Below, in pieces: positions 7,557 through 38,756 of a stretch of DNA of 42,238 nucleotides (positions are counted from its first letter, which is position 1; the number at the start of each line of letters is the position of its first letter). The notes below the pieces were generated by a model. That model was not told the DNA's origin. It ran no database searches and saw only the letters and a list, made by a program, of their open reading frames with translations. Location: NCBI GenBank assembly GCA_005503065.1, contig SCOE01000046.1, forward strand, positions 1 through 42,238. Direction: 5' to 3'. Origin of the DNA: Comamonadaceae bacterium ALPHA2B (GTDB taxonomy: Bacteria > Pseudomonadota > Gammaproteobacteria > Burkholderiales > Burkholderiaceae_C). The translations under genes were made by a program, and so were the position numbers.

Positions 7557-8710
7557 GCCTGCGCGTGCTGGCCGGCGCGGCCGCCGCCCTGGCACTCGCC
7601 CTTGGCCCCCCCCAGGCCGGGGCCGCAGGCGCGGAGGACGCACCTTCGGCAGCCGCTGCCGAGGCGCCCTGCGACCAGGCCGCGTCCGGCCGTTGCTTCA
7701 TCGGCTTCGAGCTGCCCGGCGCCGCGGGCCGGCTCCACTACTACGCTTCGCGCGGTGATGCGGGCACCGCCGAAGCAGGCACGGCGCCGACCACGGCGCT
7801 GCTCGTGATGCATGGCCACCCGCGCGACGCCAACCGCAGCTTCGACGCCGGTCTGCGCGCGGCCCGTGCGGCCGGCCGGCTCGGCGACACGCTGGTCGTC
7901 GCGCCGCTGTTCCAGGTCGGCGATGCCGACGCCGCGCGCTGCCGCACGCGCGGCGTGCCGGCCGCCGAGCCGGGCGATGCGCTGTGGACCTGCGGCGGCT
8001 GGCTGGAAGGCGCGCCCTCGATCGGCGCCAGGCCGATCGGCGCCTTCGCCGCGCTGGACGCGCTCGTCGCCGAGCTGCACCGCCGCTGGCCCAGCCTGCA
8101 GACCGTGACGCTGGCGGGCTTCTCGGCCGGTGCGCAGATGCTGCAGCACGGCGTCGGCTTCGCGGCCGATCCGCCGCCCGGCCTGAGGCTGCGCTATGTG
8201 ATCGCCGACCCCGGCAGCTGGCTCTACTTCGACCCCGCACGGCCGCAGCCGCAGCGCGGCGGCCAGGACGTCGACTGGGAGGCCTGCGGCCGCGGCGACA
8301 CATTTCCCGGCGACTGCAGCTTCGCGCTGCAAGCTCCCGACGGCGCCGCCTGCCCGGGCCACGACCGATGGAAGTACGGCACCGGCAGCCTGCCCGCGGC
8401 GCTCGGCCGCGACGCGGCGCAGGCGCGCGCACGCTATGCGGCCGCCGAGATCCACTACGTCGAGGGCGCACTCGACAGCAGCGCCGACAAGGGCACCTAC
8501 TACCCGATCCTCGACAAGTCCTGCGCGGCGATGCTGCAGGGTCCCTACCGTCTGCAGCGCGGCGTGGCCTATGCAGCCTACGACCGCGCGCTGCTCGCGC
8601 CCGCCCAGGCGCGCCAGGTCACGGTGGTGCCGGGCTGCGCGCACGACGTGGGCTGCGTGCTGCCGTCCGACGCGGCGCGCGCGGTGCTGTTCCCCACGCC
8701 GAGACGATGA
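7553..8710 (+). CDS. Secreted alpha/beta-hydrolase
   Basis: The 385-aa protein has an N-terminal signal peptide (VLAGAAAALALALGPPQAGAA) and an alpha/beta-hydrolase fold. Visible parts are the LLVMHGHP oxyanion-hole region, the nucleophile elbow GFSAGA with Ser191, and a late CAHDVGC segment that supplies a plausible catalytic His. Many cysteines (for example in CGGWLEG, EACGRG, GDCSFA, GAACPG and DKSCAA) suggest disulfides in a periplasmic or secreted enzyme. It resembles PHB-depolymerase or esterase-like proteins annotated as hypothetical; the substrate cannot be read from the sequence. It overlaps CHMI upstream and mnmH downstream by 4 nt each, so the three are probably one transcript. Confidence 0.75.
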   Translation: MSLRVLAGAAAALALALGPPQAGAAGAEDAPSAAAAEAPCDQAASGRCFIGFELPGAAGRLHYYASRGDAGTAEAGTAPTTALLVMHGHPRDANRSFDAGLRAARAAGRLGDTLVVAPLFQVGDADAARCRTRGVPAAEPGDALWTCGGWLEGAPSIGARPIGAFAALDALVAELHRRWPSLQTVTLAGFSAGAQMLQHGVGFAADPPPGLRLRYVIADPGSWLYFDPARPQPQRGGQDVDWEACGRGDTFPGDCSFALQAPDGAACPGHDRWKYGTGSLPAALGRDAAQARARYAAAEIHYVEGALDSSADKGTYYPILDKSCAAMLQGPYRLQRGVAYAAYDRALLAPAQARQVTVVPGCAHDVGCVLPSDAARAVLFPTPRR

Positions 8711-9771
8711 GCCACCGCCAGCCCACCCGCGTCGCCGACATCGCCGGCTTCGACACCTTGATCGACGCGCGCTCGCCCTCGGAGTTCGCGCTCGACCACA
8801 TCCCCGGCGCCATCAACTGCCCGGTGCTCGACGACGAGGAGCGCCGCATCGTCGGCACGATCTACAAGCAGACCGGCGCCTTCGAAGCCCGGCGCGTCGG
8901 CGGCGCGATGGTGGCCGCCAACCTGGCGCGGCACCTGCGCGAGCATTTCGCCGAGCGGCCCGCCCACTGGAAGCCGCTGGTCTACTGCTGGCGCGGCGGC
9001 CTGCGCAGCGGCTCGATGGTGAACTGGCTGCGCCTGGTCGGCTGGGACGCGCAGCAGCTCGCGGGCGGCTACAAGAGCTGGCGCCGCCACGTCATCGAAC
9101 GCATCGCCCAGGCCTGCCCGGCCCTGCCGCTGGTGGTGCTGTGCGGCGCCACGGGCAGCGCCAAGACCCGCCTGCTGCAGCGCATGGCCGAGGGCGGCGC
9201 GCAGGTGCTGGACCTGGAGGGCCTGGCGCGTCATCGGGGATCATTGCTGGGTGCGCTGCACGGCGTGCCGCAGCCGTCGCAGAAGCATTTCGAGACCCTG
9301 CTCGCGCAGCAGCTCGAGCGCTTCGACCTTCACCGCCCCGTCTTCACCGAAGGCGAGAGCCCGCGCATCGGCCGTATCGCGCTGCCGCAGCAGCTGGTCG
9401 ATCGCATGCGCGACGCGCCCTGCATCGAGGTGCAGGCCACGCCCGAGGCGCGGCTGGCCTACCTGCTGCGCGACTACGCCGACCTGGGCGAGGACCGCGA
9501 GGCGCTGGCGCAGCTGATGGCGCACTTCAAGGAAGCGCAGGGCAAGACGACGGTGCAGCGCTGGCAGGACTGGGCGCGCGCCGGCGAGCTGCCCGCCCTC
9601 TTCGACGAGCTGATGCGGCTGCACTACGACCCGCACTACGAGCGTTCGCAGGCCAGACACTTCCGGCGCTGGGAGCAGCGGCTGGCGGTGCCGGCGGACG
9701 ACCTGTCGGAGACGGCGCTCGACGGCCTGGTGCCACGGATGCTAACGGCCGCGAGCCCCTCCGATCCATAG
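8707..9771 (+). CDS. mnmH: tRNA 2-selenouridine synthase
   Basis: The 354-aa enzyme (MnmH/SelU/YbbB) replaces sulfur by selenium in 2-thiouridine at the wobble position of Glu, Gln and Lys tRNAs, using selenophosphate. The N-terminal rhodanese domain has the active-site Cys94 in VYCWRGGLRSGS. A P-loop follows (GATGSAKT, residues 147-154), and then the family-specific domain with SQKHFETLLAQQLE and the EGESPRIGR segment. It starts at ATG 8707, overlapping the hydrolase stop. It converges on selD, which makes its selenium donor. Only a 66-bp intergenic stretch filled by a repeat separates the two genes. Confidence 0.95.
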   Translation: MSHRQPTRVADIAGFDTLIDARSPSEFALDHIPGAINCPVLDDEERRIVGTIYKQTGAFEARRVGGAMVAANLARHLREHFAERPAHWKPLVYCWRGGLRSGSMVNWLRLVGWDAQQLAGGYKSWRRHVIERIAQACPALPLVVLCGATGSAKTRLLQRMAEGGAQVLDLEGLARHRGSLLGALHGVPQPSQKHFETLLAQQLERFDLHRPVFTEGESPRIGRIALPQQLVDRMRDAPCIEVQATPEARLAYLLRDYADLGEDREALAQLMAHFKEAQGKTTVQRWQDWARAGELPALFDELMRLHYDPHYERSQARHFRRWEQRLAVPADDLSETALDGLVPRMLTAASPSDP

Positions 9772-9837: not shown

Positions 9838-10893
9838 TCAGTCGACCACGACCTGCGGCGCACCCGGCGCCATGCGCCCGACCACCGCCGCTTCGCCGAA
9901 GCCGCCCTGCGCGAACATCGCCAGCACCTGCTCGGCGGCTTCGGGGGCGCAGGCCACGAGCAGCCCGCCCGAGGTCTGCGGATCGGTCAGCAACGCACGC
10001 AGCACCGAATCGTTCTCCAGGCCCTTCACGTCCGTCCCGTACGACGCCCAATTGCGCCCTGAAGCGCCCGTGACGGTGCCGCGCCCCGCCAGCGCCTGGA
10101 CGCCGGGCAGCCAGCGCAGCGCCCTGGCGTCGATGTGCGCGCTCAAGCCGGCGCCCCGCGCCAGTTCCAGCGTGTGGCCCAGCAGGCCGAAGCCGGTGAC
10201 GTCGGTCAGCGCGTGCACGCCGGGCAGGCGCGCGAGTTCGGTGCCGGGGCGGTTGAGCTTCGTCGTCGCGGCCACCATCGCAGCGTAGCCGTCGGCGTCG
10301 AGCTCGCCCTTCTTCAGCGCCGCCGACAGGATGCCCACGCCCAGCGGCTTGCCCAGGATCAGCACGTCGCCGGCCTGCGCGGTGGCGTTGCGCTTGAGGT
10401 GCTCGATCTCCACGATGCCGATGCCCACCAGGCCGTAGATGGGCTCCACGGAATCGATGGAATGCCCGCCTGCCAGGGGAATGCCGGCTTCGCGGCACAC
10501 CGACTCGCCGCCTTCCAGGATCCTCGCGATCACCTCGTGCGGCAGCACGTTGATCGGCATGCCCACGATGGCCAGCGCCATCAGCGGCTGCGCGCCCATG
10601 GCGTACAGGTCCGACAGCGCATTGGTCGCGGCGATGCGGCCGAAGTCGCGCGGGTCGTCGACGATGGGCATGAAGAAGTCGGTGGTCGCGACGATGGCCT
10701 GTCGCTCGTTGATGCGGTAGACGGCGGCATCGTCCGCCGTCTCGGTGCCCACCAGCAGGTCGGGGAAGACCATGGGCGGCAGGCTGCTTCTGGCAAGCAG
10801 GGCGGACAGTACGCCGGGGGCGATCTTGCAGCCGCAGCCCCCGCCGTGGGACAGGGAGGTGAGGCGCGGGGTGGAGTCGGTGGCAGCGGTCAT
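9838..10893 (-). CDS. selD: Selenide, water dikinase (selenophosphate synthetase)
   Basis: The 351-aa enzyme makes monoselenophosphate from selenide and ATP, the donor for selenocysteine, selenouridine and other selenium chemistry. The N-terminal HGGGCGCK motif holds Cys20 (E. coli Cys17) and Lys23 (E. coli Lys20), so this is the Cys form, not a selenoprotein. Further family segments are VGTETADDAAVYRI, the TTDFFMPIVDDPRDFGRIAA metal/ATP site, GGHSIDSVEPIYGL and DVTGFGLLGH. I chose ATG 10893. An in-frame GTG at 10920 overlaps the stop of the upstream ferritin-like gene (GTGA) and would add nine residues; neither start has a strong Shine-Dalgarno. It is the last gene of a four-gene minus-strand operon. 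Confidence 0.95.
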   Translation of the reverse strand: MTAATDSTPRLTSLSHGGGCGCKIAPGVLSALLARSSLPPMVFPDLLVGTETADDAAVYRINERQAIVATTDFFMPIVDDPRDFGRIAATNALSDLYAMGAQPLMALAIVGMPINVLPHEVIARILEGGESVCREAGIPLAGGHSIDSVEPIYGLVGIGIVEIEHLKRNATAQAGDVLILGKPLGVGILSAALKKGELDADGYAAMVAATTKLNRPGTELARLPGVHALTDVTGFGLLGHTLELARGAGLSAHIDARALRWLPGVQALAGRGTVTGASGRNWASYGTDVKGLENDSVLRALLTDPQTSGGLLVACAPEAAEQVLAMFAQGGFGEAAVVGRMAPGAPQVVVD

Positions 10894-10916
10894 GGGCGTC
10901 GGGTCGGGGAAGGGAT

Positions 10917-12158
10917 TCACATGAAGTTTCGCGTATGCAGCGCCGACAGGCGCTCGGCCTCGGCGCGGTCGAAGCCCAGGCGCAGCAGGCGCGTGAAACG
11001 GCCGTCGGCCATCTCCCGCATGAGCTGCTGCACCTTGGCAAAGCCCGAGGCGACCGCCTGGGGCGTCAGGCTGCCGGCGCCGATGAGCACCAGGGCGTCG
11101 AACACCTCTTCGTTGAGGCCCGCGGTGCCGGCCAGGCTGTCGTGCCGCGCCTCCACGGCCTGGGCCAGACGTCCGCGCAGGGCGGGCTCCTGCTGCAGGC
11201 GGTACAGCAGGTGCGACATGCCCAGCGCCACGTGGCGCGCCTCGTCGCGGGCGGCGAGCTTCGCGATCTGCCGCGTGAGCGGGTCGGGCGCGTGCGCGGC
11301 CAAGAACTGCAGCAGGTTGACGAAGGTGCCCTCGCCCAGCACCGACAGCAGGAAGCCGGCGACGGAGAAGTCCGGCTCGTCGAGCAGGCTCTTGAGCGAG
11401 GCCTGGCCCCCCGCGGTCGAGAGGGCCGGCTCGCCGCCGCCCATCCGGATGCGCCGGTTGAACACCTCGATGTGCCGCGCCTCGTCGGCCACCTGGATCG
11501 CCAGCGCGGCCTGGAGTTCACGGTAGTGCGGATGGATCTGGCCGAGGAAGCGCGCGGGCACCAGCAGCGCGGCGTTCTCGTTCTCGACCATGTAGGTCAT
11601 GACCTGGCGGACCGCGGCCTCCACTTCGGGCAGATGCGTGAAGCTCACGTTCCAGTCCAGCGCGGCCTCCGGGTCCCATTGCGCGCCCACGGCCTGCGCA
11701 TACAGCTCGGCGGCGTTCTCGGCCCACAGCTCGTCCTTGCGGTCGAGTCGGAAGGCGATGTCGGGCGAGCCGGCCTCCACGCGCGCGCCGCGGGCCGCCA
11801 GGCCCCAGTGTGCGGGCGCATGCGGCAGCACCGCGCCCTCGGCGTGCGGGTCGGCATGGCCGGTGTGCGCGGCGTCGCGCCAACGGCCGGCTTCGGCGGT
11901 GCCGGGGGTGATCGAGGCGATGCGGTCCGGCTTGTCTGCCAGGGGGCGAGGAAGTGCGATCCACGTCAACGTGTGCCCCTGCGCGCGGCACCAGTCGGCG
12001 AGCTGCGCCTGCCAGCCGGGCGCATGCCCCGTCACGCGCAGCGACTCGCCCCGGGGCAAGGCCGCCAGCGCGTGCCGCACCAGCAGGTGCGCGCCGGCGT
12101 CGAAGCCCAGCGACTCAATATCGATAGTCGGCAGCGACGATGTGTCCACGCTCGTCAT
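10917..12158 (-). CDS. Diiron ferritin-like protein with degenerate TusA-like N-terminus
   Basis: The 413-aa protein has two parts. Residues about 10-70 resemble the TusA/SirA fold (IDIESLGFDAGAHLLVRHAL, then PRGESLRV), but Phe-Asp-Ala stands where TusA has its catalytic CPxP, so persulfide transfer by that residue is not possible; only Cys57 remains. After a His/Pro-rich linker (100-125), residues about 165-330 form a ferritin-like four-helix bundle. It has a complete diiron ligand set: Glu192 or 194, Glu226 and His229 in DEARH, Glu276 in LGEGTF, and Glu306 and His309 in the second DEARH. Such sites activate O2. It overlaps the upstream binding-protein gene by 44 nt and touches selD downstream. 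An oxygenase acting in sulfur or selenium metabolism is inferred from context only. Confidence 0.75.
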   Translation of the reverse strand: MTSVDTSSLPTIDIESLGFDAGAHLLVRHALAALPRGESLRVTGHAPGWQAQLADWCRAQGHTLTWIALPRPLADKPDRIASITPGTAEAGRWRDAAHTGHADPHAEGAVLPHAPAHWGLAARGARVEAGSPDIAFRLDRKDELWAENAAELYAQAVGAQWDPEAALDWNVSFTHLPEVEAAVRQVMTYMVENENAALLVPARFLGQIHPHYRELQAALAIQVADEARHIEVFNRRIRMGGGEPALSTAGGQASLKSLLDEPDFSVAGFLLSVLGEGTFVNLLQFLAAHAPDPLTRQIAKLAARDEARHVALGMSHLLYRLQQEPALRGRLAQAVEARHDSLAGTAGLNEEVFDALVLIGAGSLTPQAVASGFAKVQQLMREMADGRFTRLLRLGFDRAEAERLSALHTRNFM

Positions 12159-12987
12159 AGAAGCCCTGTTCGGTGGCGGCGCGCTCCAGTAGGTGGAAGC
12201 CGCCGGCGCGGCCCTCGCGCCACTGCTTCAGGCCTTCCAGTTCCAGCAGCGGGCGCACCTTGGCATCGTTCCAGTCCATGGCCAGCAGCAGTTCGGCAAA
12301 GCGCTTCGTGGCGGCGGCGTCCACGCCGGGGCTCACGGTCATCGTGCAGTGGTCGTACAGCCCCGTGGTGGCCAGCACGCGCGTGCCGCCCGCCGGGAGC
12401 GTGCCTTCCTTGGCGAAGGCGCGGTGGTTGCCCGCGATCATCCAGCTCGCGGCCACCTCGCCGGCCAGCATCGCGACGGCCGCATCGCGCTCGCCGCCGA
12501 TGTGGTCGCCGTGCTTGCCGCCCAGCACGTCGAAGCGGCGCACCTCGTAGTCCTTGCCGGGCACGAGGCCGCCCTCGTGCTGCAGATGGTCCAGCGGGAT
12601 CAGCGTGGCCTGCGGCGAATCGATGGCGCCGAAGCCGACCGTCCTGCCCCTGAGGTCGGCCAGCGACTGCACCGGGCTGTCGGCCTTGACCACGAGCACG
12701 GACTGCAGGTCCTGGTCGGTGTCGCGCATCACCAAAGACTGCACGGCCTGGCCGCGCGCACGCGCCATGCGGTCGGCGCGCACCCAGGCGAGCGGCGAGT
12801 TCCAGGCGAAGGCGATGTCGCCGGTGAACTGCGCCTGCACCTGGGTCTCGTAGTTCGAGTAGAGGATGTAGTCCATCGCGAAGCCGCGCTCGCCCAGGTA
12901 GGTCTTGAAGCCTTCCCAGATGGTGACGACCTTGGGCGCGTAGGCGACGGCGCCGAGCATGAAGGGTGGGGGTTGGAGTTGAGGCAT
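12115..12987 (-). CDS. PhnD/transferrin-fold substrate-binding protein without signal peptide
   Basis: The 290-aa protein has the two-lobed type 2 periplasmic-binding fold typical of PhnD-like proteins: FMLGAVAYAPKVVTIWEGF, then QFTGDIAFAWNSPLAWVRAD, VVKADSPVQSLADLRGRTVGF and an IDSPQATLIPLDHL segment. Periplasmic relatives bind phosphonate or other oxyanions for an ABC importer. Here there is no signal peptide from any start, and no permease or ATPase gene nearby, so it probably acts in the cytosol as a sensor or delivery protein. I chose ATG 12987 because it fits the family N-terminus. A GTG at 13020 would add 11 residues, but it abuts a dispersed repeat that would supply the ribosome site. 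It overlaps the diiron gene by 44 nt. Confidence 0.75.
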   Translation of the reverse strand: MPQLQPPPFMLGAVAYAPKVVTIWEGFKTYLGERGFAMDYILYSNYETQVQAQFTGDIAFAWNSPLAWVRADRMARARGQAVQSLVMRDTDQDLQSVLVVKADSPVQSLADLRGRTVGFGAIDSPQATLIPLDHLQHEGGLVPGKDYEVRRFDVLGGKHGDHIGGERDAAVAMLAGEVAASWMIAGNHRAFAKEGTLPAGGTRVLATTGLYDHCTMTVSPGVDAAATKRFAELLLAMDWNDAKVRPLLELEGLKQWREGRAGGFHLLERAATEQGFYDERGHIVAADYRY

Positions 12988-13019
12988 GGGAAGCGGTTGT
13001 TCGGTCAGCAAATCTTTCA

Positions 13020-13079
13020 CCGTTCAGCCTGATCCTGCCGAAGGCCGGCGCGGGGCTTCGACAGGCTCGGCCCGAACGG
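13020..13079. repeat. Inverted-repeat element (family B) between flavoprotein and binding-protein genes
   Basis: Arms 13020-13043 and 13056-13079 are imperfect inverted copies. The right arm reads CTTCGACAGGCTCGGCCCGA and ends ACGG; the left arm begins CCGTTCAGCCTGA. The loop is GC-rich. The same unit recurs at 19901-19985. It lies inside an operon, so in the mRNA it would form a strong hairpin immediately before the binding-protein gene. This matches the REP-like TTCGACAGGCTCAG elements widespread in Proteobacteria. Confidence 0.8.
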
Positions 13080-13099
13080 CCGGAGCACGGTTTCCATCG

Positions 13100-14224
13100 T
13101 CATGCGGCGGCCTTGGCCACCGCGTCGCAGAGCGCGTTGCCGATGAAGTCGTACAGCACGTCCGAGGTGGGCGCCATGATCGACGCCGCGCGCGCATCGC
13201 GGAACAGGCGCTCGATGCCCACGTCCTTGCGGAAGGCGGCGCCGCCGCAGATGCGCATGGCGGTGTCCGTCACCTCCAGCGCGGCCTCGGCGGCGCTGGC
13301 CTTCACCTCCAGCACGCGCAGCATGGTGTCGGCGCGGCCGGCGGCCATGGCCGCCAGGGCATCGTCGCGCAGCACGCGCGCCTGGTCGGCGCGGATCTGC
13401 GCACGCGCCAGGTAGGCACGCACGGTCGGCAGGTCGGAAATGCTGCCGCCGCTCTCGGCGAAGCGGTTCTTCGTGATGTGCGCCGTGGCCCGCGCGAGCA
13501 CGCCGTCCATCATGCCCACCGAGCACGATGCGATCAGCGTGACGAACACCGGCAGTTCGTCGTTGTTCATCAGCACGTCGCCCTTGCCGTCCTCGCCCAG
13601 CAGTGCGCTGGCCGGGATGCGCACGCCCTCGGCCTTGACCGGCGCCGACGCGTTCCCGCGCAGGCCCATGCCGTCGAAGGCCGCGGTGCGGGTGAGGCCC
13701 GGCGCCTTCGCGTCGACCAGCCAGATGCTGGACGGCCCCTCGCCTTCGGTCGGCCGCGACGACCACACGTACGAGTCGGCCTCCTCCGCCGACGTCACCA
13801 TGCTCTTGAAGCCGTCGAGCACCACCTGGTCGCCTTCGCGGCGCGCGGTGCCCACGGGGGCCCAGAAGTGGCTGCGCGTGCCCATCTCGGACCAGGCCAG
13901 CGTCGTGACGTGCCGGCCCGCCGCGATGGCCTGGCGCACCTCGGGCGCTCCGTATTTCTCGATCAACGCGGTGCCCGCGTAGTGCATGGTCAGCACCATG
14001 GCGGTCGAGGGGCAGTCCTGCGCGATGCGCTGCACCACCTGCGCCGCCTCGGCCAGCCCCAGGCCCAGGCCACCCACTTCCTTGCTGCTCAGCAGCCCCA
14101 GCAGCCCCGCGGCGCCCAGCGCGTCCAGGGCACGGCGCGGAAAGCGCGCCTCGCGGTCGGTGTCGGCAGCGGCGGGCGCGATGGTGTCGCGGACGATGGG
14201 TTCGAGGTCTTGGAGGTGGGACAT
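13100..14224 (-). CDS. Acyl-CoA dehydrogenase-like flavoprotein
   Basis: The 374-aa protein has the acyl-CoA dehydrogenase fold: an N-terminal helical domain (AALDALGAAGLLGLL-type segment, then GGLGLGLAEAAQVVQRIAQD), the middle FAD-binding beta domain (LAWSEMGTRSHFW and VLDGFKSMVTSAEEADSYVW), and a C-terminal bundle ending ICGGAAFRKDVGIERLFRDA. Many family members oxidise acyl-CoAs; others are FMN/FAD monooxygenases acting on sulfur compounds (DszC, SfnC type). Glu366-type catalytic base placement is not clear, so the reaction is open. It starts at ATG 14224 after AGGAA. It is the first gene of the operon leading through the binding protein and diiron protein to selD. Confidence 0.85.
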   Translation of the reverse strand: MSHLQDLEPIVRDTIAPAAADTDREARFPRRALDALGAAGLLGLLSSKEVGGLGLGLAEAAQVVQRIAQDCPSTAMVLTMHYAGTALIEKYGAPEVRQAIAAGRHVTTLAWSEMGTRSHFWAPVGTARREGDQVVLDGFKSMVTSAEEADSYVWSSRPTEGEGPSSIWLVDAKAPGLTRTAAFDGMGLRGNASAPVKAEGVRIPASALLGEDGKGDVLMNNDELPVFVTLIASCSVGMMDGVLARATAHITKNRFAESGGSISDLPTVRAYLARAQIRADQARVLRDDALAAMAAGRADTMLRVLEVKASAAEAALEVTDTAMRICGGAAFRKDVGIERLFRDARAASIMAPTSDVLYDFIGNALCDAVAKAAA

Positions 14225-14541: not shown

Positions 14542-15294
14542 ATGAAGTACAGCACCACCATCTCGGGCTCATACAAGCGCGATGTGCCCGCCGCCCTGCG
14601 CGCCGTGCGCGCGCTCATGCGCGACGCCAATGCCACCGAGCAGGTCTTCATCATCATGCGGTCGCTCAACGGGCCGGTGCTGCCGGTCAACCTGGCGCGG
14701 CTCATCAGCACCGAGGCGGGTGCGCGGCAGGTGTACCGCCGCACCGAACTGGTCGAGCGACTTTGCGACCCGGCCTTCGTCGCGAGCTTCGCGCCCGGCA
14801 CCGTGGGCGCGGCGTACCGGGAGTTCCTCCAGAAGACCGGCTACTCGGCCGCCGGCCTGGCCGATGCCTCCAACCCGGAAGGCCACGCGCTGGTCGAGCA
14901 TCCGCACGCCTGGCTCGGGCGCCGCGTGCGCGACGTCCACGACATCTGGCACGTGCTCACGGGCTACCAGGCCGACGAGCCGCTCGGCGAGGCCTGCCTG
15001 GTCGGCTTCAGCTTCGCGCAGACGCGCGGCAAGGGCTGGGCCGTGCTGGGCATCGCGTCGGCGCTCAAGGGGCTCAAGGAGATGCACAGCCTGGTCGTGG
15101 CACGCGCGATCCTCGAGGGTTATCGGCGCGGCCGGGCCGCATCCTGGCTGCTGGGCGAGGACTACGAGGTGCTGCTGCACGAGCCGCTGGACGCGGCCCG
15201 CGCACGCCTGCGCATCGGCCCGGCACCAGCCTATGCCCGCGCCCAGGCGGCCGTGGCAGCGGCGACGCGCGCCGGCGGCACGGCCTCGGCCTGA
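14542..15294 (+). CDS. Coq4-family protein
   Basis: The 250-aa protein resembles Coq4, a ubiquinone-biosynthesis protein that in eukaryotes acts on the C1 position of the ring and organises the CoQ complex. The key segment is VRDVHDIWHVLTGY, giving the HDxxH metal motif with a following acidic run (QADEPLGE). SFAQTRGKGWAVLGIASAL and the C-terminal RGRAASWLLGEDYEVLLHEP segment also fit. Bacterial homologues are often annotated only as Coq4-family; a role in quinone synthesis here is inferred. The start ATG 14542 has AGGAGA about 8 nt upstream. No other ubi genes lie nearby. Confidence 0.8.
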   Translation: MKYSTTISGSYKRDVPAALRAVRALMRDANATEQVFIIMRSLNGPVLPVNLARLISTEAGARQVYRRTELVERLCDPAFVASFAPGTVGAAYREFLQKTGYSAAGLADASNPEGHALVEHPHAWLGRRVRDVHDIWHVLTGYQADEPLGEACLVGFSFAQTRGKGWAVLGIASALKGLKEMHSLVVARAILEGYRRGRAASWLLGEDYEVLLHEPLDAARARLRIGPAPAYARAQAAVAAATRAGGTASA

Positions 15295-34254: not shown

Positions 34255-34485
34255 TCAGCGGTATCAGGAGCACCGCTATCAGTTGCGCCCCAAGGGTACG
34301 GGACATTCAGCGCCGAGCTCAGCCAGGCTGAAGTCGAATGACTCCCGGGGTCAGGCGTCCGTAGCGCTCAAGAAGGGACTTGGAGCTGCACTGAGAGCCG
34401 CAACCGGCTACGAAGCCTCCATACAGGTTATCCGCGGGTTCATGGTTGGTTCAACCAAGAATTACAAGCAGTAGTGAGGAGCGAA

Positions 34486-36840
34486 ATGCACATCGAGTTC
34501 GTCGAAATCGCCAATTTCAAAAAGCTCTTGTCGGCACGAGTGGATCTGTCGCCCAAGACCACGCTGTTCGTCGGCGCGAACAACAGCGGCAAAACCTCAG
34601 CTATGTTGGCCCTACGGCGTTTCCTCACGCCCCGCCGTTGTCCGTTCGATATCCACGACTTCACGTTGTGCCACTTGCCTGCACTCGTGGACATCGGCGA
34701 AGCATGGCTTCAATCGAACCAGGTCGGTGGGGTGGCAGACCTCACCCTGGATTCATGGGTGCAAGCGTTGCCAACCTTGGATCTCTGGCTGCAGGTTGAG
34801 GAAGGCGAAGTCCACCGGGTGCGAGATTTGGTCCCGCTCATGGAGTGGACAGGAGGGCGTTTGGGAGTACGACTGCGCTATGAGCCCAAAGACCTCGATG
34901 CTCTTTTCAAGGAGTTCATCACCGCGATCACCGAAGCCAATGCTATGCGCGATGCCGCAGCGGCGGCGGCAGGTCACAAGGCTGCCGGCACGGCGCCTGC
35001 GGCCAAACTTACGGTCTGGCCCGAAAACTTGGTCGACTTCCTCACAAAGCGGCTGAGCTTGATGTTCACGATCCGGGCCTATCCGCTCGATCCAGCGCTA
35101 CTTGCCACCCCTGAGAGGCTTCGTGCACTGCCACAGGCGCTTCCGGCATCGGCGTTGCCGATTGAGGGCGATCCTCTCGGTGGACTGATCAAGGTGCATG
35201 ACATCCCCGCGCAGCGCGGCTTCGGCGAGATCCCGAGCGGCGTCGAGGAAGAGGGCGAATTGCAAACGTCGGCTGGTGGAACGCGGTTGTCGGAACAGCT
35301 GAGAAGTTACTACGCCAGACATCTGGATCCCGCTAAGGGGCCAGACCCCAAGGACCTCGAGGCTCTGCAGGCGATGGAGGCAGCTGAGGATGCATTCGAC
35401 CTGAAGCTGACCGAGAGCTTCAAAGAATGCTTCACTGAAGTAGCAGGCCTGGGCTACCCGGGAGTTAGCGACCCGCGGCCTCGCGTGTCGACACGCTTAC
35501 GTGCGATCGATGGGTTGAACCACAGCGCAGCAGTCAATTTCGAAGTCGACGTGGCGTCAGATGAGGGAATGGTCCCGCCCCTCCTGCTGCTGCCGGAGGG
35601 CAGCAATGGGCTGGGCTACCAGAACCTAATATCGATGATCTTCCGGCTAATGAGCTTCCGCGATGCCTGGATGCGTGTCGGCAAAGCCTCCAAGGGTAAC
35701 GAAGCTGCGAGCATCGAACCGCTTCACCTGGTGCTCGTTGAGGAGCCTGAAGCCCACCTGCATGCGCAGGTGCAGCAAGTCTTCATCAAGACGGCTTACG
35801 AAGTACTGCGCCGCCACCCAGAGCTGGGAGAAAGCGACGCTCTTCGGACGCAGCTTATCGTCAGCACGCACTCGAGCCACGTTGCACACGAGACGGCCTT
35901 TGCTAGCTTGCGGTATTTCCGGAGGCTGCCGGCCGGCATGGTAGCCAAAGTGCCTGTGTCGACGGTGGTCAATGTTTCGCAGGTTTTCGGGGAGGGCACG
36001 GAAACTGAACGTTTTGTCAGCCGGTACTTGCGTGCGCAGCACGCTGACATGTTCTTCGCAGACGCGGTGATCCTCGTTGAAGGTCCAGCCGAGCGCATGC
36101 TCATCCCCAACTTCATTCGGGCTCACTACAAGGTACTGCATCAGAGTTACGTCACGCTATTAGAGATCGGCGGCAGCCACGCCCATCGTCTGCGCCCATT
36201 GATTGATCATCTGGGTCTGTTGACGCTGATCGTCACCGATTTAGACAGCCTGACCGGGCCGGGCGGCTCATCAGTCCAACCGGCTCTTGGCACTGGCCAG
36301 AAGACCAACAATGCCACTCTCAAGACCTGGGTGCCAGCCATGGACGACGTCGACTCCCTCATCGGCGCGAAGCCTGAAGCCAAGACGATCAAGGACGCCA
36401 GCGACACATTGTTCGCTGTGCGAGCAGCGTATCAAACACCAATTGAGGTCACGATGCCGGGTGCCGGCGCTAAGGAGACCGCATACCCCTACACGTTTGA
36501 GGACGCGCTCGTGTTCGAGAACCTGGATTTCTTTGCGGTGTTTAGCGGCCCGGGCCTCAACGCCAAGTTCCGGACTGCCATCGCGAATGGTGGCGGTGCA
36601 GCCGCGGTTGGTGCCAAGATGTATACAGCGCTCAAGGAAGGCAAAAAGGCTGAGTTTGCCCTCGACGTTGTGATGGCGGACGACTTCAACAGTCTGAAGG
36701 TGCCGCAGTACATCGCCGAGGGTCTAGAGTGGTTGCTGGAGCAGATGAAGAAGAAACAGCTGGAAATCTTGGCGACAGCGCCGGCCACGTCCGTTTCGGT
36801 AGTGCCCGCCGCGGGCGCAGCGCCCGGTGCGACACCATGA
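34486..36840 (+). CDS. GajA/OLD-family ATPase-TOPRIM nuclease
   Basis: The 784-aa protein has an N-terminal ABC-type ATPase with Walker A GANNSGKT (30-37). It is interrupted by a long helical insertion. Walker B LVLVEEPEAHLHAQ (near 417-425) and STHSSHVAHE (H-loop) follow. A C-terminal TOPRIM nuclease has Glu532 (ILVEGPAERML) and Asp585/Asp587 (VTDLDS). This is the OLD/GajA architecture; class 2 OLD nucleases are encoded next to a UvrD-like helicase, as here, and form Gabija anti-phage systems. It is longer than the well-studied GajA (about 580 aa). ATG 34486 follows AGGAG; a GTG at 34474 is in frame. GC content is visibly lower than in the flanks. Confidence 0.85.
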   Translation: MHIEFVEIANFKKLLSARVDLSPKTTLFVGANNSGKTSAMLALRRFLTPRRCPFDIHDFTLCHLPALVDIGEAWLQSNQVGGVADLTLDSWVQALPTLDLWLQVEEGEVHRVRDLVPLMEWTGGRLGVRLRYEPKDLDALFKEFITAITEANAMRDAAAAAAGHKAAGTAPAAKLTVWPENLVDFLTKRLSLMFTIRAYPLDPALLATPERLRALPQALPASALPIEGDPLGGLIKVHDIPAQRGFGEIPSGVEEEGELQTSAGGTRLSEQLRSYYARHLDPAKGPDPKDLEALQAMEAAEDAFDLKLTESFKECFTEVAGLGYPGVSDPRPRVSTRLRAIDGLNHSAAVNFEVDVASDEGMVPPLLLLPEGSNGLGYQNLISMIFRLMSFRDAWMRVGKASKGNEAASIEPLHLVLVEEPEAHLHAQVQQVFIKTAYEVLRRHPELGESDALRTQLIVSTHSSHVAHETAFASLRYFRRLPAGMVAKVPVSTVVNVSQVFGEGTETERFVSRYLRAQHADMFFADAVILVEGPAERMLIPNFIRAHYKVLHQSYVTLLEIGGSHAHRLRPLIDHLGLLTLIVTDLDSLTGPGGSSVQPALGTGQKTNNATLKTWVPAMDDVDSLIGAKPEAKTIKDASDTLFAVRAAYQTPIEVTMPGAGAKETAYPYTFEDALVFENLDFFAVFSGPGLNAKFRTAIANGGGAAAVGAKMYTALKEGKKAEFALDVVMADDFNSLKVPQYIAEGLEWLLEQMKKKQLEILATAPATSVSVVPAAGAAPGATP

Positions 36841-38756
36841 CGATCGCAGACGACCAATTCGACTTCGAGGCAGATGCAACGATCATTGAGTGCCTTGATC
36901 TGCGCAAGCCAAGAAGCTTTTTCCTTTACGCAGGCGCTGGGTCAGGAAAGACGCGGTCGTTGGTCAGCGCCGTCAGAAAGACGATCGAGGGCGAGCACGG
37001 CCGGCAGCTGACTCTGACTGGCAAAAAAATTGGCATCATCACGTACACCAATGCCGCTTCCGACGAAATCAAGCAACGTCTTAAGTTCGACCCTCGGGTA
37101 GAGGTGATGACGATCCACGCATTCTCGTGGTCGTTGATCTAGGGTTTTAACGCTGACATCCGCCAGTGGGTCGCCAAGAACCTTACAGAGGAAATTGCCG
37201 AGCTCGAGGAACTGCACAAGAAGGGACGAGCCAACACGAAGGCCGGCGCTGAACGGCTTCGGTCAATGGAAAGCAAGCGTCGCCGTCTGGCGCGGCTGGA
37301 CTCCATCGTCAAATTCATCTACAGCCCGACCAGCGATAACCGTACTCGTGATTCTCTGAATCACTCCGAGGTCATCGCCATGACGGCGTCGTTCTTGACC
37401 AGCAAGCCCGGGCTGCGGCGAATGTTGGTCAGTCGGTGTCCAATCTTGCTCATTGATGAGAGCCAGGACACCAACAAAGCGCTCATGGATGCGTTCCTGC
37501 ATTTGGAAGAAGAGTTCCATGGACGGTTCAGCCTGGGGCTCTTCGGCGACATGATGCAGCGCATCTACTCCGACGGAAAGGAGCAGTTGCACAAGGCCAT
37601 ACCGGCTAGGTGGGCCATGCCTCGCAAGAGGATGAACCACCGATGCCCGTCTCGCGTCGTCGAGGTAATCAACAGCATCCGCCACGATGTTGATGGCGAG
37701 GAACAGGTTCCACGCAGCGACGCTGAAGAAGGCATGGTCCGGGTGTTCATCGCACCCCAGTCGGGCGTTGACGCCTTCGCCGTCGAAGCTACGGTGCGCC
37801 AGCGTATGGCGACGATAGCCGAGGACCCGGCCTGGCAGAACTCAGACATGGTGAAGACGCTTGCCCTTGAGCATCTGATGTCCGCTCGGCGATTCGGCTT
37901 CGTGGAGTTCTTCGAGCCGCTTTGGTTTGTCGACAATCTCAAGACTAGCCTACTTCAAGGCACCGGCGCAGGCCTCGGATTCTTCGTTCGGGACGTGTTG
38001 CCGCTAGTCAAGATGCTTCGCGCAAACGACCGGTTTGGGGCTACGGCGGCCGTAAAGGCGTCGTCCCCGCTGCTGGACCGCGCAGCGCTCCAAGAAGCTG
38101 GATCGAATCAAGTCGCGCAGCTCCAGAAGGCCAAGGCGGCGTGCGACGGGCTCCTTGCGCTAGTCACAGAACAGCCTGAGATCGCTGCGCAAGCGGTGCT
38201 CGAATTTGTGGCGCAGACGGGCCTGTTTGTCATTCCGGAGGTGCTGGCTCCGTTCGTTCCCGGCAACACCGTGACAGAAACGACCAAGGACGGCGCAGGC
38301 CCGGGCGATCAGATGGAGGGTGCCGAGGGAGGGGAAGACGAGGACACGAGTCCTGAGCTTCGAGCGTGGAGCAAAGCGCTTGAGGCCCCTCTGAGCCAGA
38401 TCGAGCGCTACGACTTGTATGCGCGAGGGCTATCGCAGTTCGGGACACACCAAGGCGTCAAGGGGCTCGAGTTCCCACGCGTGCTGGTCGTGATCAACGA
38501 TGACGAGGCGCGAGGCTTTCTTTTTGCTTACGACAAGTTCTTCGGGACCAAGGAGAAGTCAAAGGCGGACGCTGAAAACGAAGCTGCTGGCCGAGAGACC
38601 GGTTCGGACCGCACTCGCCGCTTGTTCTACGTGACATGCAGCCGGGCCGAGAACAGCTTGGCTATCGTCTACTACTCGCCGAATCCTGCGCTGGCTCGCA
38701 ACGCCATCCTCCAGCACGGTTGGTTCAGAGAGGGCGAGGTTGAACTGATCAACTGA
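36837..38756 (+). pseudogene. GajB-like UvrD/Rep-family helicase interrupted by an in-frame amber codon
   Basis: ATG 36837 overlaps the GajA-like stop (ATGA). The frame encodes Walker A YAGAGSGKT (31-39) and motif Ia IITYTNAASDEI, then reaches TAG at 37140-37142 (codon 102) after HAFSWSLI. The same frame continues without another stop to 38756, starting GFNADIRQWVAKNL. It carries motif II ILLIDESQD, motif III LGLFGDMMQR, motif V HQGVKGLEF and motif VI YVTCSRAEN. Without the TAG the protein would be about 639 aa. The first ATG after the stop with a sizeable frame (37266) has no Shine-Dalgarno and would lack Walker A. So the helicase is inactivated by one base change (C to T from CAG, or A to T from AAG), unless suppressed. 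Confidence 0.88.

Follow-up and report, generated by a model that had tools for sequence, protein, structure and literature searches.

A three-gene unit next to selD

The window analysed here is the whole stretch of 42,238 nucleotides taken from contig SCOE01000046.1 of Comamonadaceae bacterium ALPHA2B. It carries a run of four genes on the minus strand, three of which, here termed A, B and C, precede selD, the gene for selenide, water dikinase. Gene A (13100..14224) encodes a flavoprotein that belongs to the acyl-CoA dehydrogenase superfamily but lacks its catalytic glutamate, as judged from Pfam, NCBIfam and alignment. Gene B (12115..13020) encodes a soluble, leader-less relative of the phosphonate/phosphite-type periplasmic binding proteins, as judged from PF12974 and a structure model, while gene C (10917..12158) is predicted to encode a TusA-like N-terminal domain, devoid of the CPxP cysteine, followed by a ferritin-like diiron oxygenase domain. 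The last gene, selD (9838..10920), matches NF002098 with 540.7 bits (cut-off 299) and TIGR00476 with 422.8 bits (cut-off 125). A gap of 79 nt separates A from B, B and C overlap by 44 nt, and C and selD overlap by 4 nt. An original prediction, made from the letters of the window, had described four tightly spaced or overlapping genes on one strand ending in selD, and all four frames are present. Our conclusion from the results that follow is that A-B-C is one unit, and that this unit very probably has to do with selenium.

An alignment of C, scanned once against 84,980 species genomes, revealed 182 stretches encoding a relative, and the best 80 of these 182 are the 80 loci referred to below. 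This survey of gene order, which had been proposed as a check on the original prediction, found A, B and C in the same order and on the same strand in 74 of the 80 loci, so that the arrangement is beyond chance. The exceptions are L020, L022, L045, L047, L078 and L088; two of them, L047 and L078, start inside or just before the unit at the end of a contig. Three stretches (L020, L088 and L143) show B and C without an adjacent A within the stretch analysed, which suggests a B-C core with A perhaps supplied from elsewhere.

The distribution of the unit is patchy. C is found in 7 of the 15 genomes of the window's genus and in four of 250 genomes drawn from its order; 15 genomes of that sample gave a match, and 11 of these (E 2e-21 to 7e-4) were excluded as C, among them G169, with a 50% match over residues 5-133 that contains a stop. 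In the class of the actinobacterial carrier G108, C is present at 61-100% identity in 8 of 296 genomes; the other 119 of the 127 matching genomes were excluded as C, with identities of 36% or less among the matches listed. A-B-C is complete in six of these eight stretches, L143 holding B-C only and L147 only parts of B and C. Plasmids gave one match to C, in Streptomyces, with 30% identity over 40% of the protein.

Predicted proteins of the unit

The A protein has the three-domain architecture of its superfamily, the Pfam Acyl-CoA_dh N, M and C domains all scoring above their cut-offs. Its top NCBIfam match is NF049984 (Rv1679_FadE16), at 346 bits against a cut-off of 600. Where short-chain acyl-CoA dehydrogenase reads YEGTSE, A reads MAPTSD, and the position of the catalytic glutamate is occupied by alanine in 25, glycine in two and serine in one of the 28 sequences compared, so that the glutamate of the short- and medium-chain enzymes is lacking throughout. 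On this alignment, A is probably a flavin enzyme that has lost the normal route of acyl-CoA dehydrogenation. The sulfur-acquisition flavoproteins DszC and SfnB belong to the same superfamily, although A scores far under the cut-offs of both (SfnB, 85 of 431 bits; DszC, 56 of 850 bits). A second A gene, 62-63% identical to that of the window, was seen in the Lampropedia loci L021 (11215-12330) and L022 (11214-12326), where it sits between C and selD; upstream of B in L022, only a short fragment of A was found.

B matches PF12974 with 109.5 bits and, below the cut-offs, the Rv1680-like family NF049985 (213 bits, cut-off 400) and the putative selenate binding protein family TIGR04553 (60.8 bits, cut-off 250). 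Its model (predicted local distance difference test, pLDDT, 92.7) has the two-lobed fold of a binding protein and resembles PtxB, PhnD, ArrX and AioX, so that the nearest solved folds are those of proteins binding phosphite, phosphonate, arsenate and arsenite. The motifs KHGDH, GER and DHC are invariant in all 27 sequences. As had been predicted, B lacks a signal peptide and a transporter: no hydrophobic stretch precedes the fold, whose first strand begins at residue 20, and Pfam and NCBIfam profiles detect no permease or ATPase in the four-gene run. B thus appears to stay in the cytosol. This sets it apart from TIGR04553, the binding protein of a putative selenate ATP-binding cassette (ABC) transporter with PhnC/PhnE-like partners, which shares its fold superfamily: the TIGR04553 paralogue in L108, a locus of the window's genus, has a hydrophobic leader and transporter partners, whereas B has neither. 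B is 26-28% identical to two aligned TIGR04553 paralogues, both of which lack its HGDH and DHC motifs.

The full ferritin-like ligand set claimed for C (E192/E194, E226, H229, E276, E306 and H309) is borne out, all seven ligands being invariant in 34 of 34 aligned sequences, that of the window included. In the model of C (pLDDT 81.9; predicted template modelling score 0.84) the N-terminal part runs strand-helix-strand-helix-strand-strand, which we take to be the layout of TusA, and leads into a helical domain with matches to diiron oxygenases. The predicted bundle holds the ligand set, as in enzymes of the aldehyde-deformylating oxygenase (ADO), VlmB and AurF kind. Judging from the model, C is therefore probably a diiron oxygenase resembling ADO and VlmB, although its identity to ADO and the VlmB/AurF type is 15-21% among the matches listed, and C adds the TusA-like domain. 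At the sequence level, the matches to Pfam TusA (a weak 16.7 bits, cut-off 28.6) and Pfam AurF (20.6 bits, cut-off 29.6) both lie below the cut-off. None of the 34 sequences has a cysteine at residues 10-28, presumably the position of the CPxP motif, and one has a cysteine at residue 29; the loss of this cysteine from a TusA-like domain, as originally described, thus holds. The downstream Cys57 is retained in 32 of the 34. A second family, seen in the class of G108 (L130-L141, for instance), is about 30% identical to residues ~94-380 of the C of L091, with the TusA-like part outside the match.

Selenium genes near A-B-C

We looked for selA, selB, selD, mnmH and formate dehydrogenase genes within 10 kb of C. 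At least one was found in 21 of the 80 loci: selA, selB, selD or mnmH in 20, and a formate dehydrogenase gene in the remaining one, L031. The frame of the latter runs across an in-frame TGA between FDNQARV and HGPTV, which we take to be a selenocysteine site. If a 5 Mb genome is taken, roughly, to contain three selenium loci, about one of the 80 loci would be expected near a selenium gene. The 21 linked loci fall into eleven genus-level lineages, namely Xenophilus (plus one metagenome-assembled genome (MAG) of this genus), Lampropedia, Hylemonella, Ideonella, Methyloversatilis, Ramlibacter, Hydrogenophaga, Novimethylophilus, Azoarcus, Paraburkholderia and one Pseudomonadota MAG.

The arrangements differ among these lineages. 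In L013-L016, L018, L068 and L083-L086, selD lies shortly after C and on the same strand, and in Lampropedia the second A lies in between. In Hylemonella and Ideonella, selA-selB stands immediately before A; in Methyloversatilis (L068) selenium genes flank the unit on both sides; and in L087, L089 and L092 they are on the opposite strand or farther off.

The original prediction held that the link would be accidental if the first three genes lay away from selD in close relatives. In one congener, G001, they do lie away from selD, although the place they occupy there is between selA and selB. There the genes run formate dehydrogenase, fdhE, selA, A, B, C, selB; A begins 16 nt after the selA stop, and selB 13 nt after that of C. 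Without A-B-C, as in the congener G012, the selA and selB frames share 4 nt; selB also comes immediately after selA in G009 and G011. A tree of 92 C proteins places the G001 copy with that of G226 (support 100/94), and branches with support of 100/98 and 100/99 separate it from the window copy; the end branch of the G001 copy is among the long ones, whose placement the tree program calls unsure. A single genus thus holds two distant versions of A-B-C, one flanked by selA and selB and the other placed before selD. When the tips are labelled by whether a selenium gene is nearby, the tree implies eight gains or losses, at least seven of them forced by supported branches; a single early gain of the linkage followed by several losses could also account for this pattern. 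Together with the patchy distribution, the tree points to horizontal movement of A-B-C.

Transporter genes are found beside some of the linked units. In Hydrogenophaga (L084), a putative selenate transporter binding protein (TIGR04553, above the cut-off) is encoded about 3.4 kb upstream of A, and in Lampropedia L021 a taurine-type transporter is directly upstream of A. We also observed that, in the window's genus, a TIGR04553 gene (above the cut-off) adjoins selD with or without A-B-C (L108, 15608-18330; L110, 11472-12371), PhnC-like and PhnE-like genes following the binding protein in L108.

Co-occurrence with selD, selA and mnmH

Fifty carrier genomes were sampled from the 80 loci; the other 30 comprised near-duplicates, as judged by eye, and 11 loci that themselves show selD (L013-L015, L022, L068, L078, L083-L086 and L089). 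Three pairs of handles with identical coordinates denote the same genomes (G004/G060, G005/G062 and G218/G079). A selD above the cut-off is present in 47 of the 50 carriers, compared with 179 of the 250 genomes of the order, and selA in 35 of the 50 compared with 70 of the 250. In the class of G108, all eight genomes with C have selD, against 206 of 296 overall (Fisher p 0.05). The three carriers lacking selD are MAGs (G076, G085, of 1.5 Mb, and G104); G104 is probably incomplete, given that it has selA but no selD above the cut-off. The other outcome that would have made the link accidental, homologues found mostly in genomes without selD, is thus the reverse of what we see.

The search for mnmH covered 37 genomes, among them every one of the 15 carriers (of 50) without selA, and the 14 of the 50 outside it all have selA. 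The 47 carriers with selD divide into 34 with selA and 13 with mnmH but no selA, so that none carries an orphan selD lacking both. Among those searched, selA without mnmH above the cut-off was seen in G063, G066, G072, G104, G106, G107 and G108. From these data we conclude that the unit follows SelD and not one end use of selenophosphate. A restriction of A-B-C to selenocysteine or formate dehydrogenase is ruled out by the 13 carriers with selD and mnmH but no selA. As a separate observation, the selD genes of G106, G107 and G108 (the MAGs behind L088, L090 and L091) contain an in-frame TGA, making it probable that SelD is itself a selenoprotein in these organisms.

The same 13 carriers bear on the idea that A-B-C protects an aerobic selenocysteine/formate dehydrogenase pathway by removing or recycling reactive selenium (selenide, selenol or oxidised selenium) or oxygen. 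Such a role would suit the several copies beside selA, selB and formate dehydrogenase genes, as well as a C protein that, by its predicted fold, would use oxygen. It is weakened by these carriers, in which A-B-C is not tied to selenoproteins, and detoxification has no obvious need of a partner resembling a binding protein. We therefore regard protection as quite unlikely.

The window's own genome bears on a further explanation, namely that of the original prediction. This noted the absence of selA and selB and proposed that selenophosphate might enter an undescribed oxidative pathway of selenium or sulfur. On such a reading A-B-C would be fed by selenophosphate and oxidatively build or modify a selenium compound or cofactor, the TusA-like domain presenting or receiving selenium. 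The absence is true of the window alone: contig C42 of the same genome carries selA (606 bits), with selB next to it (382.6 bits summed over pieces, cut-off 242), and a formate dehydrogenase gene with an in-frame TGA (L114). The argument that MnmH is the only user of selenophosphate therefore falls, and with it, given that no carrier has an orphan selD, the premise that selenophosphate must feed a new pathway. Use of selenophosphate by A-B-C would still fit the overlap of C with selD in the window, the closely following selD of the ten loci listed above, and the fusion of a carrier-type domain to an oxygenase in C. The lack of carriers without both selA and mnmH speaks against it weakly, since orphan selD may be rare anyway; the lack of a cysteine at the presumed CPxP position of C does so too, as does the finding that, beyond A, B, C and selD, no gene cluster recurs in more than 11 of the 80 loci. 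On balance, we consider this explanation rather unlikely.

Is the unit concerned with selenium?

Several observations weigh against any selenium role and have to be set beside those above. No sought selenium gene lies within 10 kb in 59 of the 80 loci; contig ends cut 19 of these short of 10 kb, and 40 have the full 10 kb on both sides. The claim that the three genes are linked to selenium reaches beyond one locus, but these loci speak against its strict form. Even in the background selD is frequent (179 of 250 genomes of the order, 206 of 296 in the class of G108), and the Fisher tests against the order (2e-4 for selD; 2e-8 for selA, with a background of 67/246) yield p-values that are only indicative, because carriers and background differ in family make-up. 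All 15 genomes of the window's genus have selD, and eight of them keep it without C, making A-B-C dispensable. The second Lampropedia locus, L022, has no taurine-type transporter upstream, and the TIGR04553 gene beside selD in G001 lends no support to A-B-C, as the same is seen in G012 in its absence.

Among named families, A and B come nearest to the mycobacterial Rv1679 (FadE16) and Rv1680 (NF049984 and NF049985), both matched far below their cut-offs; judging by their numbers, these are presumably neighbouring genes. The two families are not known to take part in selenium metabolism, nor their mycobacterial hosts to possess selD, and A and B may therefore carry out chemistry that does not concern selenium. 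As far as our literature search reached, neither a diiron partner nor a link to selenium is described for this pair.

Accordingly, A-B-C might be a module for organosulfur or other oxidative chemistry that came to lie near selenium genes by chance or at insertion hot spots. The unlinked loci and the named relatives of A and B would agree with this, as would a cluster of ABC ATPase genes near eight of the 80 copies, only one of which, the taurine-type gene of L021, is annotated; this is suggestive, and ABC ATPase genes are common. No common theme emerges from ten annotated neighbour proteins (from L017, L024, L039, L045, L058 and L067), which range from the products of aromatic amino-acid genes (Nitrosovibrio L039) to a helicase (L067), with a glycosidase and an AraC regulator among those of L024. 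Chance proximity is difficult to reconcile with eleven genus-level lineages in which the unit is linked to differing selenium genes, with the seven or more gains or losses forced on the tree, with the clean placement between selA and selB in G001, or with selD in 47 of 50 carriers, G104 being probably an incomplete exception. We find it, too, quite unlikely: the kept order, the varied selenium neighbours, the selA-selB placement and the co-occurrence with selD together make the selenium link probably real. The observation behind the original prediction is thus confirmed, and its interpretation partly supported.

A possible role upstream of SelD

If the unit does serve selenium metabolism, supply upstream of SelD explains the data at least as well as a new use, since there is no orphan selD. 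Carriers have selA only, mnmH only or both, as would be expected of a supplier, and the transporters near the L084 and L021 units, together with the oxyanion-binding relatives of B, favour the same direction. That A-B-C is a horizontally moving three-gene unit of selenium metabolism acting at or just upstream of SelD is the reading we prefer, as a serious possibility that stops short of being probable. B, with its binding-protein fold kept in the cytosol, would capture a small selenium compound, either an oxyanion or an alkyl seleninate or selenonate. A, as the flavin enzyme, and C, as a diiron oxygenase with a TusA-like docking domain, would then oxidise or cleave this compound in an O2-dependent manner, and the selenium set free would join the pool that SelD draws on to make selenophosphate, for use in selenocysteine and 2-selenouridine. 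Our data establish gene content and order, conserved residues, predicted folds, recurrence in selenium loci and co-occurrence with selD; the substrate, the reaction, the direction (supply rather than use) and the docking are inferred.

DszB is a desulfinase with a binding-protein fold. The pairing of an oxidising flavoprotein with such a fold in the Dsz system may, by analogy, serve as a model for the proposed chemistry.

Unassigned selenium genes have been inferred from genomic neighbourhood before: YedE, YedF, DUF3343 and a LysR-like protein were predicted in this way by Lin et al. 2015 (PMC5322559), as far as the portion available shows. A-B-C appears to be a separate set, and the available main text of that article does not mention acyl-CoA, ferritin, ABC transporter, phosphonate or TusA. 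The accessible part of PMC13188914 likewise gave no match to acyl-CoA, ferritin or diiron. According to the part available of PMC9312934, a high-affinity selenium transport system had not yet been identified by 2022. Our literature search, which did not extend to preprints and supplements, found no paper describing A-B-C in a selenium context. The folds are all known, while the assembly, the fused carrier-like domain and the selenium link are new as far as searched.

More tentatively still, A-B-C may be the first dedicated O2-dependent pathway of selenium acquisition in bacteria, in which B would hand an organoselenium compound or selenium oxyanion to A and a TusA-tethered C that release selenium for SelD. 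Such a pathway would fill a gap, given that no specific route of selenium supply upstream of selenophosphate has been identified. How bacteria acquire selenium specifically, apart from sulfur and phosphate routes, is an open question for which A-B-C is a concrete and testable candidate, with defined residues for mutation (D223/H224/C225 of DHC and H170/D172/H173 of HGDH in B, and the diiron ligands in C). If A-B-C instead uses selenophosphate, it would represent a further biological use of selenium.

Other genes of the window

Next to the four-gene run lies mnmH (selU; 8707..9771, plus strand), the gene for tRNA 2-selenouridine synthase, whose presence next door had been noted originally and is supported by NF008752 (507.9 bits, cut-off 266). 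It is convergent with selD and is a context gene outside the A-B-C unit. On the other side, a Coq4-like protein (49 bits, cut-off 22.9) is encoded at 14542-15294 on the plus strand, divergent from A, and is likewise found just upstream of A in L013-L015. Farther away, the window carries a Gabija anti-phage pair at 34474-36840 and 37266-38756, both on the plus strand. GajA is full length, with a score of 908 bits; for GajB the profile match starts at position 144 of 625, so that the front part of this frame is missing or in another frame.

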